From Qipengyuania aquimaris (lineage in GTDB: Bacteria > Pseudomonadota > Alphaproteobacteria > Sphingomonadales > Sphingomonadaceae), in the NCBI RefSeq assembly GCF_009827445.1, contig NZ_WTYI01000001.1, positions 2,494,381 to 2,558,380 of the forward strand: 64,000 bases of DNA, in the 5' to 3' direction. A model generated the notes under the pieces. It saw only the letters and a program-made list of their open reading frames with translations, did not search any database and was not told the origin of the DNA. The position numbers and the translations under genes were made by a program. Shown in pieces: positions 28,210 to 33,344 of the stretch (position 1 is the stretch's first letter; each line of letters begins with the position of its first letter).

Positions 28210-28857
28210 TTACCAGCGGACCAGCGGCGGAATTGCGAACCTGCCGACCAGCGCCATCAGGCCTACGGGCGCAATGTGCCACATGCCGAGGTGGTCGATC
28301 GTGTCGATCGGGCACGCAAGGCCATAGGCAAAGCTGCCGATCGCGCCTGCTGCAATGCCCGTGTATGTTCCTGCGGCATTGAGCGAAACCGGCGCACCGC
28401 GGCGCAGCCACAGCACCAGCGTTGTCGCAGTTACGAGGCCAAACGCCGCTCCGGCAAGAAAGCAATCGAGCCCGTAGGCGTCGTGCGACAATGCCGAGAC
28501 CAGGCCGCCTGCACCCAGCATGAGTAGCGCGGTCAGCGGTAGCAGAGCGAGCATTGCCGACGACCAGCGCGCGCCATCATGGGTGTTGCCGACGCGCGGG
28601 CTGGCCATGCGCAGGACGGCCAAGGCCGCTGCTGCTCCAACCATGCCGAGCATTCCGTTGGCGATGAAGAAAACCCCCGACGCCTGTCCGGATACGATGC
28701 CGTGCCAAAGTCCATCGAGCAATTCGACGAGTACAACGGTGGCCACAGCCGACAACGCCACCAGTGCGATACCGTGTGTAAGCCGGATCGGTTTCACCGG
28801 GGCGAGATCGCCCGCCAGATCGTCGATCAGGGAATTAGGAACCCGGTTCATTGTCAT
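28210..28857 (-). CDS. nrsF: NrsF-type (DUF1109) membrane anti-sigma factor
   Basis: A 215-residue protein with a short cytoplasmic N-terminus (IDDLAGDLAPVKPIR) and six hydrophobic helices, the layout of NrsF, the anti-sigma factor of SigF in Caulobacter. The only two Cys, C132 and C182, each occur in an AYGLxC context (AYGLDC and AYGLAC) at helix ends, where periplasmic Cys are reported to be needed for metal sensing in NrsF. The ATG overlaps the sigma-factor TGA (ATGA), so stoichiometric synthesis is likely. It would hold the sigma factor at the membrane until metal stress releases it. Confidence 0.88.
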   Translation of the reverse strand: MTMNRVPNSLIDDLAGDLAPVKPIRLTHGIALVALSAVATVVLVELLDGLWHGIVSGQASGVFFIANGMLGMVGAAAALAVLRMASPRVGNTHDGARWSSAMLALLPLTALLMLGAGGLVSALSHDAYGLDCFLAGAAFGLVTATTLVLWLRRGAPVSLNAAGTYTGIAAGAIGSFAYGLACPIDTIDHLGMWHIAPVGLMALVGRFAIPPLVRW

Positions 28858-29384
28858 TCGGCCTTTTCTACGAGCGCAGACAGTTTCTTCAGTCCGCGAT
28901 GGATATTCACTTTGACCAGGCTTTCGCTCTGGCCGGTCTTGGCGGAAGCTTCGGAGATGGTCAGCCCTTCGATCTTGACCAGCTCGATAACCTCGGCCTG
29001 CTTGTCGGGGAGATGGACGAACAGCCGCTCCAGGCTCATGCGGGCCATGACGGCTTCTTCCTCGCTGTCCTCCGGCGCGTCGTGATCGCCAAGTTCGTCT
29101 TCGGCGCTGCGATAGACTTTGCGCAAATGGTCGATCCAGCGATAGCGTGCGATCGCGGCAAGCCAAGGATAGAAGGCCCGCGTCGGATCCCAGGTGGCGC
29201 GCTTGGTATGCACGGCCATCATGACCTCCTGCACCAGATCATCGAGCTGGGCGGGGGCCACGCGCTTCCTGAAATAGCGCTCGAGCCACAGCTGAACTTC
29301 GGACAGCAGCGCGCGGTAAATTGCGCGATCGCCTTTCTGCGAGGCGGCCATCATCTGTGCCATTGTGGCTTCATCGGCGATCAT
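28854..29384 (-). CDS. sigF: ECF sigma factor, SigF type
   Basis: A 176-residue sigma-70 family protein with region 2 (LDDLVQEVMMAVHTKRATWD, then PWLAAIARYRWIDHLRK) and region 4 (LPDKQAEVIELVKIEGLTISEASAKTGQSESLVKVNIHRGLKKL, helix-turn-helix). No region 3 or extra domain. The start at 29384 has a good GGAGG site; the frame upstream is shadow. It sits in the minus-strand unit bufA1-doxX-sigF-nrsF and is followed by its anti-sigma gene with ATGA overlap. The SigF-type promoter sequences next to bufA1 suggest that it drives its own operon. Confidence 0.93.
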   Translation of the reverse strand: MIADEATMAQMMAASQKGDRAIYRALLSEVQLWLERYFRKRVAPAQLDDLVQEVMMAVHTKRATWDPTRAFYPWLAAIARYRWIDHLRKVYRSAEDELGDHDAPEDSEEEAVMARMSLERLFVHLPDKQAEVIELVKIEGLTISEASAKTGQSESLVKVNIHRGLKKLSALVEKAE

Positions 29385-29409
29385 CGCGCGTCCTCCCCCG
29401 ACCTTGCTA

Positions 29410-29868
29410 TCACTTGGCCCGCCGCGAGGCGAGCGGCGCATCGAGCGAGATCGCTCCTGCCCCGCGCGACACCAGCACTGCCGCCATCGCGACCCACACG
29501 ATGTGGGTGGTCCACCAGGCATCCGGGTAAACGAAGAACTGGATGACCAGCGTCATCACCAGCAGGGACAGTGCCGCAAAGCGTGTAAACAGGCCGAGCA
29601 CCAGCAGGACCGGGAAAACGTGCTCGGCATAGGTTGCCATCGGCGCAGCTATATCGGCCGGTATGGGCAGGCCGGTATACTCGTATTCGAACAGGAAATT
29701 GGCGTTATCGCTGATCGATAGCGCACTTCCTTCCTCCACCTTGGTGCGGCCGGACCTCCAGAAAATCCCGGCCAGCGCGATGCGGGTCAGCAGTAGCGCC
29801 AGGCCTTCCGGCAGGCGCGAAGCCAGCCAGTCGGTCAAGCGGTCGTAGGGGGTCAACAATCTCTGCAT
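29410..29868 (-). CDS. DoxX family membrane protein
   Basis: A 152-residue membrane protein with four hydrophobic helices. The segment LLLTRIALAGIFWRSGRTKVEEG and the later PMATYAEHVFPVLLVLGLFTRFAALSLL match DoxX. DoxX genes are frequent members of bufferin and related MNIO loci; whether they carry electrons through quinones or help place the precursor at the membrane is not settled. It lies 47 bases after bufA1 and 25 bases before sigF on the same strand. Confidence 0.9.
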   Translation of the reverse strand: MQRLLTPYDRLTDWLASRLPEGLALLLTRIALAGIFWRSGRTKVEEGSALSISDNANFLFEYEYTGLPIPADIAAPMATYAEHVFPVLLVLGLFTRFAALSLLVMTLVIQFFVYPDAWWTTHIVWVAMAAVLVSRGAGAISLDAPLASRRAK

Positions 29869-29915
29869 GCGTCACCTGTCGGCTGGCCGGTAGGGGAGGA
29901 ACGGCGAAGTAAGGC

Positions 29916-30203
29916 TCAGCGCTTGATCGCGGTCAGCGAGCCTTTGCCCTTGGGCGTCTGAATCGTTTCGCAGGTGCCCTTCTTGACCAGCTTCCAGGCA
30001 TTGCCCTGGTAATCGCGGGTGGATGTACCGGCGCAGCTTGTGCCCGGTCCGGCGGCGCAGTCGTTTTCGCCGGCTTTGGCGACGCCGTAACACTTCTCCA
30101 TAGCAGGGCGCTTCTGGGCCGCGGCCGGGCTGGCGACCATGGTGGTGGCAACGCCAGCGGTAAGGGCGAGCCCGGCAATACGGGCGATCGATTGGCTGTT
30201 CAT
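29916..30203 (-). CDS. bufA1: BufA1-type (DUF2282) bufferin precursor, copper-binding RiPP
   Basis: A 95-residue secreted precursor. The signal peptide ends around PAAAQ (residue 30). The mature ~65 residues carry four Cys at 38, 49, 57 and 78 in the DUF2282/BufA1 pattern: [20 protein letters not shown] and KGTC. In characterised bufferins the MNIO enzyme BufB with BufC converts Cys to thiooxazole groups, and the exported peptide binds copper. The start at 30203 has a GAGAGAG site; the frame upstream crosses the promoter. It is transcribed from a SigF-type promoter at 30260-30286 and leads into doxX-sigF-nrsF. Confidence 0.9.
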
Positions 30204-30259
30204 GGCAAGTCTCTCTCGAATGATGCGTCCGGGCGATTGTCGCCGGAACTGGCCTGTCA

Positions 30260-30286
30260 TTCGGGAGCGATCGCCGCACGGTTACC
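30260..30286 (-). promoter_or_regulatory. SigF-type ECF promoter of bufA1-doxX-sigF-nrsF
   Basis: On the minus strand GGTAACC (plus 30280-30286) and CGAA (plus 30260-30263) are separated by exactly 16 bases after GTAACC. This equals the GTAACC-N16-CGAA pattern I recall as reported for Caulobacter SigF. Transcription would begin near 30252, about 50 bases before the bufA1 ATG. Confidence 0.8.
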
Positions 30287-30308
30287 GGATCGGAAAATTT
30301 TTTCGGCT

Positions 30309-30334
30309 GTAACCGCTTCCGGGGCCGGCGCGAA
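30309..30334 (+). promoter_or_regulatory. SigF-type ECF promoter of bufA2-bufB-bufC
   Basis: GTAACC at 30309-30314, 16-base spacer, CGAA at 30331-30334, identical in spacing to the divergent promoter 23 bases away. Transcription would start near 30342, giving a leader of about 43 bases before ATG 30385. An ATG at 30352 falls inside that leader. Confidence 0.8.
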
Positions 30335-30384
30335 CGATCCTGTGTGCACCGATGCACGATCAAGATCACAAGGAACTGGATGCC

Positions 30385-30672
30385 ATGACACTCGCAACCC
30401 GCAAGACTGCCACTGCTGCTGCGGCGGCAGCTTTCGCCCTCAGCTCGATGAGCGCATTTGCTGCGCCTGCCCCCGCTGGTAGCAGCGGCGCAGCCATCAA
30501 TTCGGACGATGCGGTTCATTGTTATGGCGTGCACAGCTGTAAGGGCCAGGCCGACTGCGCGACCAGCGAAAACGCCTGCAAGGGCCAGAACGAATGCAAG
30601 GGCCACGGCTTCAAGGCGATGAAGGCCGGCGAATGCCTGACCAAGGGTGGCACCATCGGCGACATCGGCTGA
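30385..30672 (+). CDS. bufA2: Six-Cys bufferin precursor (BufA2-like)
   Basis: A 95-residue secreted precursor. The start at 30385 has AAGGA 10 bases upstream; an in-frame ATG at 30352 would only add a polar leader before the signal peptide. Signal cleavage is likely near AFAAP. The mature peptide has six Cys at 46, 52, 58, 65, 71 and 84, in [29 protein letters not shown] and GEC. This C-K-G-type spacing is that of the second bufferin precursor group maturated by the same MNIO enzymes. It shares the CYGV start with BufA1 in this locus. It is followed by a strong hairpin and then bufB, so precursor mRNA probably exceeds maturase mRNA. Confidence 0.85.
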
Positions 30673-30686
30673 CGTCCAACCTGTTT

Positions 30687-30754
30687 GGCGGCCCGGCAGC
30701 GGCGGAAACCGACCCCTTCTTCCGCCACGTCCCTCGCCGGGCCGCCATCCTTTT
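30687..30754 (+). terminator. Nested hairpin / attenuator between bufA2 and bufB
   Basis: Outer perfect 11-bp stem GGCGGCCCGGC (30687-30697) with GCCGGGCCGCC (30736-30746). Inner 7-bp stem GGCGGAA (30701-30707) with TTCCGCC (30720-30726). TTTT follows at 30751-30754. It may be a partial terminator or an mRNA-stabilising 3' end for bufA2. Confidence 0.75.
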
Positions 30755-30769
30755 ACGGGAGCCTCCTTC

Positions 30770-31618
30770 ATGAGCGTTATCGCGCCATTTCACGGATTCG
30801 GGCTGGCCCTGCGCCGCACGCATTATACCGACTTCCTCGAGACCCAAGTGCCGGTCGATTTCGTCGAGGTGATCTCGGAAAACTACATGGTGGAAGGCGG
30901 CAAGCCGCTGCGCATCCTTGAGGAAACTCGCGCCCGCCATCCGGTGATATTGCATGGCGTTTCGATGTCTGTCGGATCCGCGCAGGGACTGGACGAGGAC
31001 TATCTCGAACGGCTTGCCGCGCTGGCGCAGAGGATCGACCCGCTATGGGTTTCCGACCACTTGTGCTGGACCCGGACGAGCGCCCACAATTCGCACGACC
31101 TCTTGCCGCTGCCGTTGACGGCGGAAGCATTGGACGTCGTGTGCGCGAACATCGATCGCGCGCAGGAAAAGCTTGGCCGGGCAATGCTGTTTGAAAACCC
31201 GTCAAGCTACCTCACCTTTCCCGAGGACGAGATGAGCGAATGGGCTTTCCTGTCGGAGATGGCCCGGCGCACCGGCTGCTATCTCCTGCTCGACGTCAAC
31301 AACGTCTATGTCAGCGCACAGAACCACGGGTTCTCCGCGAGCGAGTATTTCGCGGGCCTTCCACTGGACCGGGTGCGGCAAATCCATCTTGCAGGTCACA
31401 CACCTGCGACGGGAGAACGATCGCTCGTGATCGATACCCACGACCGTGAAGTCTGTGACGAGGTCTGGGATCTCTTTCGTGAAGTCGCAGCACTGACCGG
31501 ACCCGTCGCGACCATGATCGAACGTGACGACGCGATCCCGCCGCTTTCTGAACTGCTGGACGAACTTGGTCGGGCGAGAAATATTGCTGTCAATGCCGAG
31601 CAGGCGAGGGCCGCATGA
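30770..31618 (+). CDS. bufB: MNIO family bufferin maturase BufB (DUF692)
   Basis: Multinuclear non-haem iron oxidative enzyme, 282 residues, expected to modify Cys residues of the bufferin precursors in the cytoplasm. The TIM-barrel metal ligands are visible along the chain: EVISENYM, VILHGVSMSVGS, WVSDHLCW with HNSHDLLPLP, the acid of LFENPSSYL, LLLDVNNVYVSAQNHG, QIHLAGH, DTHD and IERDD. The start at 30770 has GGAG 8 bases upstream; the open frame further upstream is the hairpin region. bufC starts within its stop (ATGA), as expected for a complex of the two proteins. Confidence 0.95.
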   Translation: MSVIAPFHGFGLALRRTHYTDFLETQVPVDFVEVISENYMVEGGKPLRILEETRARHPVILHGVSMSVGSAQGLDEDYLERLAALAQRIDPLWVSDHLCWTRTSAHNSHDLLPLPLTAEALDVVCANIDRAQEKLGRAMLFENPSSYLTFPEDEMSEWAFLSEMARRTGCYLLLDVNNVYVSAQNHGFSASEYFAGLPLDRVRQIHLAGHTPATGERSLVIDTHDREVCDEVWDLFREVAALTGPVATMIERDDAIPPLSELLDELGRARNIAVNAEQARAA

Positions 31619-32385
31619 GCACGCTTGCCGAACGTCAGGCCGAGATTATGGCGAGCCTGCTCGACGAAGATCGACCGCTTCCAGCGAACCTTGGCCGGCG
31701 GCACGAAGCGGGACTGCAAATCTACCGCAACAATTATCGCACTGCCCTGGTCGAGGCGCTGCGGTCGACATTTGAAAGGACGGAGCGTCTGGTCGGCGAG
31801 GCGAGCTTTGCGCGCGCCGCGGCGCACCACCTCATCACCACTCCGCCCTCCAGCTGGACGCTGGACCTCGCGGGGTGCGGGTTTGCCGATACCTGCGCGG
31901 ACCTGTTTCCGCACGATCGCGAAGTTGCGGAACTCGCCTGGCTTGAATGGGCGATGCACCTCAGTTTCGTCGCACGCGATTCCAGTCCGACGAACCTCGC
32001 CGGATTTGCGCAAGCGACCGCAGAATTCGGTCCCGCTGATTGGGAAGGCCTGGTCTTGCGGTTCGCGCCGGGCATTGACCTACGGACCGTGCACCACGAC
32101 CTGAAGGCGCTCTGGTCCTCGCTAAATGAGGGAGAGGGGGAGGCGGACATCGTCCCGCTCGACACTCCCGCCACTGTCATCGTATGGCGCGAAGCCGAGA
32201 GACCCGTATTCCTGGCTGTCACCCAGGCCGAGGGCGACGCGCTCGCGTCGATGATTGCCGGAGCGAGCTACGGCCAAGCCTGCGCCGCGATGGCCGAGGC
32301 GCTCGGGCAGGAGCAGGCAGTCGAAACCGCCGGCGCGATGCTCGGCCGCTGGCTTGGCGAGGGACTTGTCGAGGGACTCGCCTAG
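31615..32385 (+). CDS. bufC: BufC, bufferin maturation partner (DUF2063)
   Basis: A 256-residue protein of the DUF2063 family. The N-terminal helical domain (LGRRHEAGLQIYRNNYRTALVEALRSTFERTERLVG) is the PF09836 signature, originally called a putative DNA-binding domain; in bufferin and HvfABC-like systems such proteins deliver the precursor to the MNIO enzyme. The C-terminal part is alpha/beta and Ala-rich. ATGA overlap with bufB shows translational coupling. Its TAG shares bases with the stop of the convergent SDR gene (32382-32385). Confidence 0.93.
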   Translation: MSTLAERQAEIMASLLDEDRPLPANLGRRHEAGLQIYRNNYRTALVEALRSTFERTERLVGEASFARAAAHHLITTPPSSWTLDLAGCGFADTCADLFPHDREVAELAWLEWAMHLSFVARDSSPTNLAGFAQATAEFGPADWEGLVLRFAPGIDLRTVHHDLKALWSSLNEGEGEADIVPLDTPATVIVWREAERPVFLAVTQAEGDALASMIAGASYGQACAAMAEALGQEQAVETAGAMLGRWLGEGLVEGLA

Positions 32386-33344
32386 TAGGCGAAGGTCTCG
32401 CCGACCATTTCCTCGCTCATCGACCAGAGGCGGTCGGCCTTGTCGGGATCGATCGCATAGCTGCGCACACCGCCACCGGTGCTTTCGTCGTCCTGATCGG
32501 CGACATGGCAGTTTTCGCAGTAAAGACCGCCATTGCCTTCCAGTTCCTCTGTCGTCGCGGCCCAGCACGTGGTTGCCGCGCCTTGCGGGATGGTCTTGAA
32601 CGGCTCCGGCGTTTCGCCGCGCTCTTCTGCGTTCTTTCGGATCCGTTCCATGAGATCGGCCATGTCCTGATCGCTCATATGGCGGCCGAGGTTGGTCATG
32701 ATGCCGCCCGGATGGAGCGAATAGGCGTGGATGCCCTTGTCGGAGAGCCGCTTTTCAAGGCCTACGGCAAACAGGACATTGGCCGTCTTCGATTGTCCGT
32801 AGCTGATCCACTTGTCGTACTCGCGCGTCTCGAAATTCGGATCGTCGAAGTCGACCGGCGCGATGTGGTGGCCGCGGCTCGACAGGTTGACGATGCGCGG
32901 GTGCTCGCCCTTATCCAGCAGGGGGACAAGCAGATTGGTCAGCAGGAAATGTCCGACATGGTTGGTGCCGAACTGCATTTCGAAACCGTCGGCGGTCTTC
33001 GCCTGGTCGCAGGCCATGACGCCGGCATTGTTGATCAGGAGGTCGATCTTCTCGAAGCGCTCGTTCGCTTCGGCGGCCGCCTTGCGGATGCTGTCGAGCG
33101 AGGCGAGGTCGCATTTGAGCGTATCGACCGTCGCGCCGGTCTGTTCCGCGATGGCATCGGCCGCCGCAGACAGCTTGGTTGCATCGCGGCCGGACAGGAT
33201 GATGTGTGCGCCCTTCGCGGCCATTGCACGCGCGGTTTCCTGTCCCAGCCCGGAATAGCCGCCGGTCACCAGTGCGGTCCGTCCCGACAGGTCCTTGCCT
33301 TCAAGAACGTCGTCTGCCGTGCTTTCGAAACCGAATTCGCTCAT
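32382..33344 (-). CDS. Short-chain dehydrogenase/reductase
   Basis: NAD(P)-dependent oxidoreductase of 320 residues. The cofactor motif is TGGYSGLG, the structural motif is NNAGVM, and the catalytic Ser/Tyr/Lys are in NLSSRGHH and YGQSK. The Arg in LSGRDATK favours NADP(H). The length and the NFETREYDKWISYGQSKTAN region resemble the WWOX/retinol-dehydrogenase-like SDR group. Substrate unknown. It is convergent with bufC (4-base overlap) and not obviously connected to it. Confidence 0.92.
   Translation of the reverse strand: MSEFGFESTADDVLEGKDLSGRTALVTGGYSGLGQETARAMAAKGAHIILSGRDATKLSAAADAIAEQTGATVDTLKCDLASLDSIRKAAAEANERFEKIDLLINNAGVMACDQAKTADGFEMQFGTNHVGHFLLTNLLVPLLDKGEHPRIVNLSSRGHHIAPVDFDDPNFETREYDKWISYGQSKTANVLFAVGLEKRLSDKGIHAYSLHPGGIMTNLGRHMSDQDMADLMERIRKNAEERGETPEPFKTIPQGAATTCWAATTEELEGNGGLYCENCHVADQDDESTGGGVRSYAIDPDKADRLWSMSEEMVGETFAY

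Follow-up and report, generated by a model that had tools for sequence, protein, structure and literature searches.

A divergent bufferin locus of Qipengyuania in which one Buf2-type BufBC pair probably serves two precursor families

The closest described counterparts of the locus considered here are the bufferin operons of Caulobacter vibrioides (sigF-nrsF / CC3254-3257 and CC2907-2905), which share with it the SigF/NrsF pair, a DUF2282 precursor, an MNIO, a DUF2063 partner and DoxX (PMC3511200, PMC8224329). In Caulobacter, two bufferin operons are placed under one SigF by GTAACC-N16-CGAA promoters identical to those found here (PMC3511200), but each precursor has its own BufBC at a separate locus, whereas the locus analyzed here combines both precursors with a single pair. 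The bufferin BGCs described by Antoine et al. 2025 are built of the same gene families and include tandem precursors; the status of genomes with multiple precursors and one MNIO-PME1 pair was posed there as an open question, and sigma/NrsF genes were assigned to Buf1 but not to Buf2 BGCs (PMC12452194). In contrast to the latter assignment, many of the loci analyzed here combine Buf2-type bufABC with sigF-nrsF, in some cases in the immediate order sigF-nrsF-bufA2BC. The captophorin (5-thiooxazole) systems FonABC and BufA2B2C2 likewise employ an MNIO-PME1 pair on Cys-Lys precursors and, as in the BufB described here, contain an Asp directly after the catalytic base; the available text of that work considers neither the use of one pair for both Cys-Lys and DUF2282 precursors nor the loss of this Asp upon loss of the Cys-Lys precursor (Gadgil et al. 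2026, PMC13097082). The gig/dax operons of Cupriavidus and Legionella are similar in being metal-induced bufferin operons, and the descriptions of these bufferin BGCs in the papers that cite them mention no paired Buf2 arm (PMC8224329, PMC12452194).

Profile searches of a 64,000-nucleotide stretch of the genome of the marine bacterium Qipengyuania aquimaris (Erythrobacteraceae), hereafter the window, delineated a divergent bufferin locus at positions 28210-32385. The minus-strand arm, bufA1-doxX-sigF-nrsF, encodes a Buf1 precursor of the DUF2282 family (29916..30203; PF10048, E 1.4e-25), a DoxX/HvfX-like membrane protein (29410..29868; PF07681, E 3e-18; NF050144, E 2e-16, below the cut-off of that model), an ECF sigma factor with Sigma70 regions 2 and 4 (28854..29384; PF08281, 1.2e-12; PF04542, 3.6e-11) and the membrane anti-sigma factor NrsF (28210..28857; PF06532, E 3.7e-37), with a 4-nt overlap between sigF and nrsF. 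DoxX/HvfX-like membrane proteins are a component of bufferin clusters. The plus-strand arm consists of bufA2 (30385..30672), bufB (30770..31618) and bufC (31615..32385). Thus, the identities, order and orientation of all seven genes in the original prediction are borne out by profile matches, and so are the two precursor classes that it distinguished, with four and six Cys, respectively, each 95 aa long. The genome (99.99% complete) encodes one MNIO, one DUF2282 protein, one BufA2, one NrsF and one DUF2063 protein. The canonical Buf1 order bufABC was not found at this locus: because bufA1 is directly followed by doxX rather than by bufB-bufC, and the sole MNIO is encoded on the opposite strand, we classify it as a mixed Buf1/Buf2 locus.

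Both precursors contain signal-peptide-like N-termini, which in BufA1 is, by inspection, hydrophobic and ends in ...SPAAAQ. BufA1 is recognizable as a Buf1 precursor by a DUF2282 domain with four conserved Cys, which are retained in all 89 sequences from shared loci and all 16 from loci lacking BufA2, and it evolves under purifying selection, with dN/dS of about 0.1. BufA2, with its six Cys and three Cys-Lys motifs, belongs to the Buf2 precursors as judged by the NF050166 score (101.2 bits, E 2.7e-29, against a cut-off of 60 bits) and by bufBC downstream.

BufB scores above the threshold of the MNIO bufferin maturase model (NF050167, 375.8 vs a cut-off of 310 bits) and contains the near-invariant MNIO residues, with Asp253 in the catalytic base position and Asp254 in the substrate-contact position; the Asp that follows the catalytic base has been proposed to contact a Lys of BufA2 (PMC13097082). 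In the phylogenetic tree, the MNIOs of Buf1 operons form one branch (support 99/100), and every MNIO from the divergent loci falls with the Buf2-type MNIOs (support 97/92). BufB is therefore of the Buf2 subtype on account of both its grouping with MNIOs of Buf2 operons and the Asp after the catalytic base, and, given this phylogenetic placement, the bufA1 arm is reminiscent of a Buf1 operon devoid of its own bufBC. A sequence search of BufC against the PDB retrieved no relative; its DUF2063 domain is recognized by PF09836 (E 1.2e-16), and the folded model (pLDDT 94.5) shows similarity to TglI, to 3DEE and, weakly, to an RRE (5v1u). BufC is a PME-type-1 partner in which DUF2063 is fused to an RRE-like C-terminal domain.

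The original prediction had considered this arrangement non-standard and called for a survey of genomes with two precursor classes and one BufBC pair. The rarity of the layout is ruled out by such a survey: among 198 genomes, 17 of the 42 Buf2 loci of Sphingomonadales are divergent in the same manner, 24 genomes of the sample combine both precursors with a single MNIO, and the exact layout recurs in 34 of the 80 nearest named relatives. A co-directional version of the dual-precursor layout is present in Dyella and Luteibacter. Among bufferin clusters, this is a widespread variant.

The intergenic region (30204-30384) contains one exact SigF-type motif per strand, as expected from the shared promoters of the original prediction: GTAACC-N16-CGAA at 30260..30285 on the minus strand, in front of bufA1-doxX-sigF-nrsF, and at 30309..30334 on the plus strand, in front of bufA2-bufB-bufC. 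These two back-to-back sites compare with 0.08 exact matches expected in the window, and the motif is the one mapped for SigF of Caulobacter (PMC3511200). Furthermore, it is found on both arms, with at most one mismatch, in 87 of the 87 divergent BufA1|BufA2 loci (vs 12 of 1040 shuffles), which makes control of both arms by SigF, as originally proposed, plausible at the sequence level. The sigma factor and its PF06532 anti-sigma neighbor constitute a recognizable SigF/NrsF pair, considering these promoters and the two conserved Cys of NrsF, Cys132 and Cys182, which are located approximately where the Caulobacter protein has the conserved C131 and C181, whose roles have been described (PMC3511200). 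Genome-wide, there are 13 exact N16 matches, the majority within reading frames; only the two at this locus and one pair near 1.769 Mb are promoter-like, and therefore we dropped the delineation of a SigF regulon from the motif alone. The designation of the locus as a self-contained module turned out to be too strong because sigF-nrsF is retained in close relatives without bufferin genes, for which reason SigF probably has targets beyond this locus. An alignment of the sigF promoter of these relatives with the bufA1 promoter revealed no clear homology, and derivation of the former from the latter was rejected.

The reading that we favor, with a probability of about 0.7, is that BufA1 and BufA2 are both modified by the single Buf2-type BufBC, with the two arms under the control of SigF/NrsF. 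The presence of a single MNIO and a single DUF2063 protein in the genome, together with a comparative signature of dual use, speaks for the originally predicted sharing of the pair. Under this scheme, metal stress, most likely copper, by analogy with Caulobacter, would release SigF from the membrane-bound NrsF, and the SigF-RNA polymerase would initiate at the two back-to-back promoters, yielding the bufA1-doxX-sigF-nrsF and bufA2-bufB-bufC transcripts. The lone BufBC would then convert Cys of BufA2 and BufA1, probably to thiooxazoles, prior to Sec export, and both peptides might bind copper in the periplasm, a function carried over here from Caulobacter (PMC8224329, PMC12452194). The minus arm would represent a Buf1 operon (A1-B1-C1-DoxX-SigF-NrsF) that lacks B1 and C1.

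The comparative signature comes from Erythrobacter and relatives, in which BufA2 is missing between A1 and B, and BufA1 is encoded opposite the same Buf2-type BufBC. The BufA2 model has no match in seven of these genomes, each with one MNIO, although divergent Buf2 precursors can be missed by this model, as it has no match in the Caulobacter control either. Position 254 of BufB is Asp in 104 of the 107 loci with BufA2 vs 4 of the 16 without; it changed 6 times over a tree length of 3.57 in the absence of BufA2, compared to 3 times over 27.0 in its presence (p 1.5e-4), a comparison that nearly reduces to one loss, given that the lineages without BufA2 form, in essence, a single clade of related species. 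Asp254 is thus relaxed where BufA2 was lost, being the second most accelerated among 222 BufB columns, after G215, and residues 118, 191, 206 and 223 of BufC shift in the same lineages. Three BufA2-bearing loci lack Asp254, and in two of these BufA2 has three Cys-Lys motifs. Three other candidate BufA2 contacts were set aside: N39 of BufC, which is Asn also in Buf1-type BufC, and G215 and L259 of BufB, for which there was no prior reason to name them.

An unlikely alternative is that BufBC modifies BufA2 alone. BufA1 would then be exported unmodified, to act simply as a Cys-containing metal-binding or stress protein, and would be retained in the operon because it is SigF-driven. Asp254 is a Buf2-type residue, compatible with this possibility, and unmodified precursors have been named as an alternative by Antoine et al. 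(PMC12452194). However, Erythrobacter retains the Buf2-type BufBC with BufA1 as the sole recognized precursor, even as Asp254 is relaxed, and the pattern of the four Cys in BufA1 is identical to that in Buf1 operons with a BufB of their own. The force of this comparison would vanish if the BufA2-less species kept BufBC for another, unlinked precursor; we consider this improbable, even though MNIO clusters include unknown precursor families (PMC12452194) and the search covered gene neighborhoods and known families. Within 3.5 kb, no other plausible signal-peptide Cys-rich ORF was detected in these species, bufA1 and bufB have retained their head-to-head arrangement, SigF motifs are for the most part preserved on either side, and the orphan second precursors in the three Erythrobacter genomes examined are BufA1-like.

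It seems very unlikely that the plus arm is independent of SigF, with bufA2BC controlled by some other copper-responsive regulator and a motif that persists as a relic. The loose motif (spacers of 14-19) is about as frequent genome-wide as its reversed control (31 vs 32), as such a relic would allow; nevertheless, nearly all relatives preserve the motif with its exact 16-bp spacing on either side, in agreement with the mapped promoters upstream of both Caulobacter bufferin operons (PMC3511200). With sharing of the pair as the preferred reading, we lean, with less assurance, toward a scenario in which a bispecific Buf2-type pair took over Buf1 precursors across Sphingomonadales, with Asp254 and the four BufC residues serving BufA2 only. 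Erythrobacter, which has lost BufA2 and retains the Buf2-type pair opposite BufA1, would then represent the completed handover, with an enzyme dedicated to BufA1.

Whether one MNIO-partner pair can mature different precursor families is described as unresolved in the bufferin literature (PMC12452194), and this locus and its relatives bear on the question by providing matched natural cases, in which the two precursors co-occur with either one pair or two, or BufA1 alone is accompanied by a Buf2-type pair. The locus and its relatives point to specific residues for swapping, which makes pair sharing experimentally testable, and the case bears on how RiPP enzymes switch substrates.

Gene calls and family matches confirmed the seven genes of the original prediction at their described positions (window 28210-32385): bufA1, doxX, sigF and nrsF, in this order, on the minus strand, and bufA2, bufB and bufC, in this order, on the plus strand. 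The observation of a bufferin locus with both precursor types was correct: BufA1 and BufA2 are each 95 aa long and contain 4 and 6 cysteines, respectively, with three Cys-Lys motifs in BufA2. The host genome, a single contig of 2.66 Mb that is 99.99% complete, carries exactly one gene each for an MNIO (the BufB maturase family), DUF2063 (BufC), DUF2282 (BufA1), BufA2 and NrsF.

The layout had been considered non-standard, a claim that does not hold: it is a widespread form of a system already known. Among 198 genomes of the order Sphingomonadales, 42 encode BufA2 above the cut-off, and 17 of these combine a single MNIO with minus-strand nrsF and bufA1 facing plus-strand bufA2 and bufB; others of the 42 have the alternative order with only bufA1 on the minus strand, followed by nrsF, bufA2 and bufB on the plus strand. 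Altogether, 24 surveyed genomes encode BufA1 and BufA2 together with just one MNIO. Of the 80 closest BufB relatives from named genomes, the nearest of which belong to Qipengyuania, the exact seven-gene layout is found in 34, sigF lies on the plus side in 12, and bufA2 is absent in 10. A further 10 (Dyella, Luteibacter and Pseudomonas edaphica) show a co-directional bufA1-doxX-bufA2-bufB-bufC array; given that Dyella and Luteibacter genomes encode two or three MNIOs each, the single-pair argument is limited to Sphingomonadales. The same seven genes in the same layout are also present in records of Microbulbifer halophilus and M. litoralis (L143, L145), with BufB 78-79% identical to that of the window; the GC content of 62% in the L143 locus, within flanks of 45-46%, suggests horizontal transfer.

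Sigma factor and NrsF genes have been reported to accompany Buf1 but not Buf2 clusters (PMC12452194), a rule contradicted by the divergent loci described here, in which sigF-nrsF occur with Buf2-type genes. Four other Sphingomonadales loci (L085-L088), with sigF-nrsF-bufA2-bufB-bufC all in one direction, also conflict with it. In the BufB tree, all MNIOs from Buf1 operons group in a single branch (support 99/100), and those of the divergent loci, including the window's, all fall within a Buf2-type branch (97/92). Because Buf1 operons in the same family run A1-B1-(C1)-DoxX-SigF-NrsF, with C1 mostly too divergent for our search to detect, the minus arm of the window looks like a Buf1 operon without B1 and C1, a direction of change that we infer. 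In one genome (G100, L075), bufA2-bufB-bufC lies head to head with a Buf1 operon that contains a bufB of its own, whose Buf1-type product is on a long branch; this arrangement may resemble an earlier state. The sigF-nrsF genes of G100 are located elsewhere.

Between the arms of the window locus, GTAACC-N16-CGAA, known as the SigF motif from mapping in Caulobacter (PMC3511200), occurs twice as an exact match, once on each strand. With at most one mismatch, it is found on both arms of 87 divergent loci, of which 59 have sigF to the left and 28 have it elsewhere, counts that include some duplicates (same genome reached by two routes); block-shuffled upstream regions reach this level in 12 of 1040 cases. 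Copper induces Caulobacter SigF, and mutation of sigF makes the bacterium sensitive to copper (PMC8224329). Given this response and the conserved arm motifs, SigF likely controls both arms. A second, overlapping SigF-like motif pair in the window's genome (G000:C1:1769191-1769264; L010 4190-4266) is flanked by genes for a pyridine nucleotide-disulfide oxidoreductase and an NAD-epimerase-like protein. Three bufferin-less genomes of the same genus (G103, G120 and G184; L134, L135 and L137) retain sigF-nrsF, immediately preceded by a SigF-type motif. The pair adjoins the SDR and mscS genes also seen in the window (28210-33344) and, in G103 and G184, the same DUF885-like neighbor; this is a version of the window site without doxX-bufA1-bufA2-bufB-bufC, and SigF presumably has other targets there.

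BufA2 has been lost in the Erythrobacter group: in seven sample genomes and in named Erythrobacter (NAP1, longus, rubeus), bufA1 lies directly opposite bufBC, with no BufA2 in between, and a BufA2 model search of the seven yielded no match. Each BufA2-less genome of this group encodes one MNIO, and a scan of small cysteine-containing ORFs within 3.5 kb of the BufA2-less loci revealed no other convincing precursor. The four core cysteines of BufA1 are kept everywhere, and BufA1 evolves under purifying selection. Three Erythrobacter genomes examined (L129, L130, L133) encode an additional BufA1 located apart from bufB; its N-terminus resembles a lipoprotein signal (LAAACSGG).

In Gadgil et al. 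(PMC13097082), the residue following the catalytic Asp is proposed to read the neighbor of the modified cysteine; it is Asp in MNIOs for Cys-Lys precursors, contacts the BufA2 lysine in a model, and corresponds to Asp254 in our BufB alignment. Asp is present at this position in 104 of 107 MNIOs adjoining bufA2 and in 4 of 16 where bufA2 was lost (the others being E in 7, G in 4 and A in 1), and this is the only substantially relaxed column among the 87 that are at least 95% conserved with BufA2. On the tree, Asp254 changed 6 times per 3.57 branch-length units without BufA2 versus 3 times per 27.0 with it (p = 1.5e-4, the site having been picked beforehand from the literature); without prior choice, it ranks second of 222 columns, after column G215. 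BufC positions 118, 191, 206 and 223, conserved in Buf2-type and variable in Buf1-type BufC, relax as well; three of these map to the C-terminal region. As a whole, the predicted BufC fold matches TglI and 3DEE, and an RRE weakly. This correlation, in which the BufA2-less species are close relatives, fits a BufB-BufC pair that would be constrained by two substrates and partly freed once one is lost.

The functional reading of the locus, a SigF-run bufferin module with a shared maturase, is likely but unproven, being drawn from sequence comparison, with the presumed thiooxazole chemistry carried over from Caulobacter Buf1 and related systems. The locus puts the question of whether one Buf2-type BufBC pair modifies both BufA1 and BufA2 within direct experimental reach.
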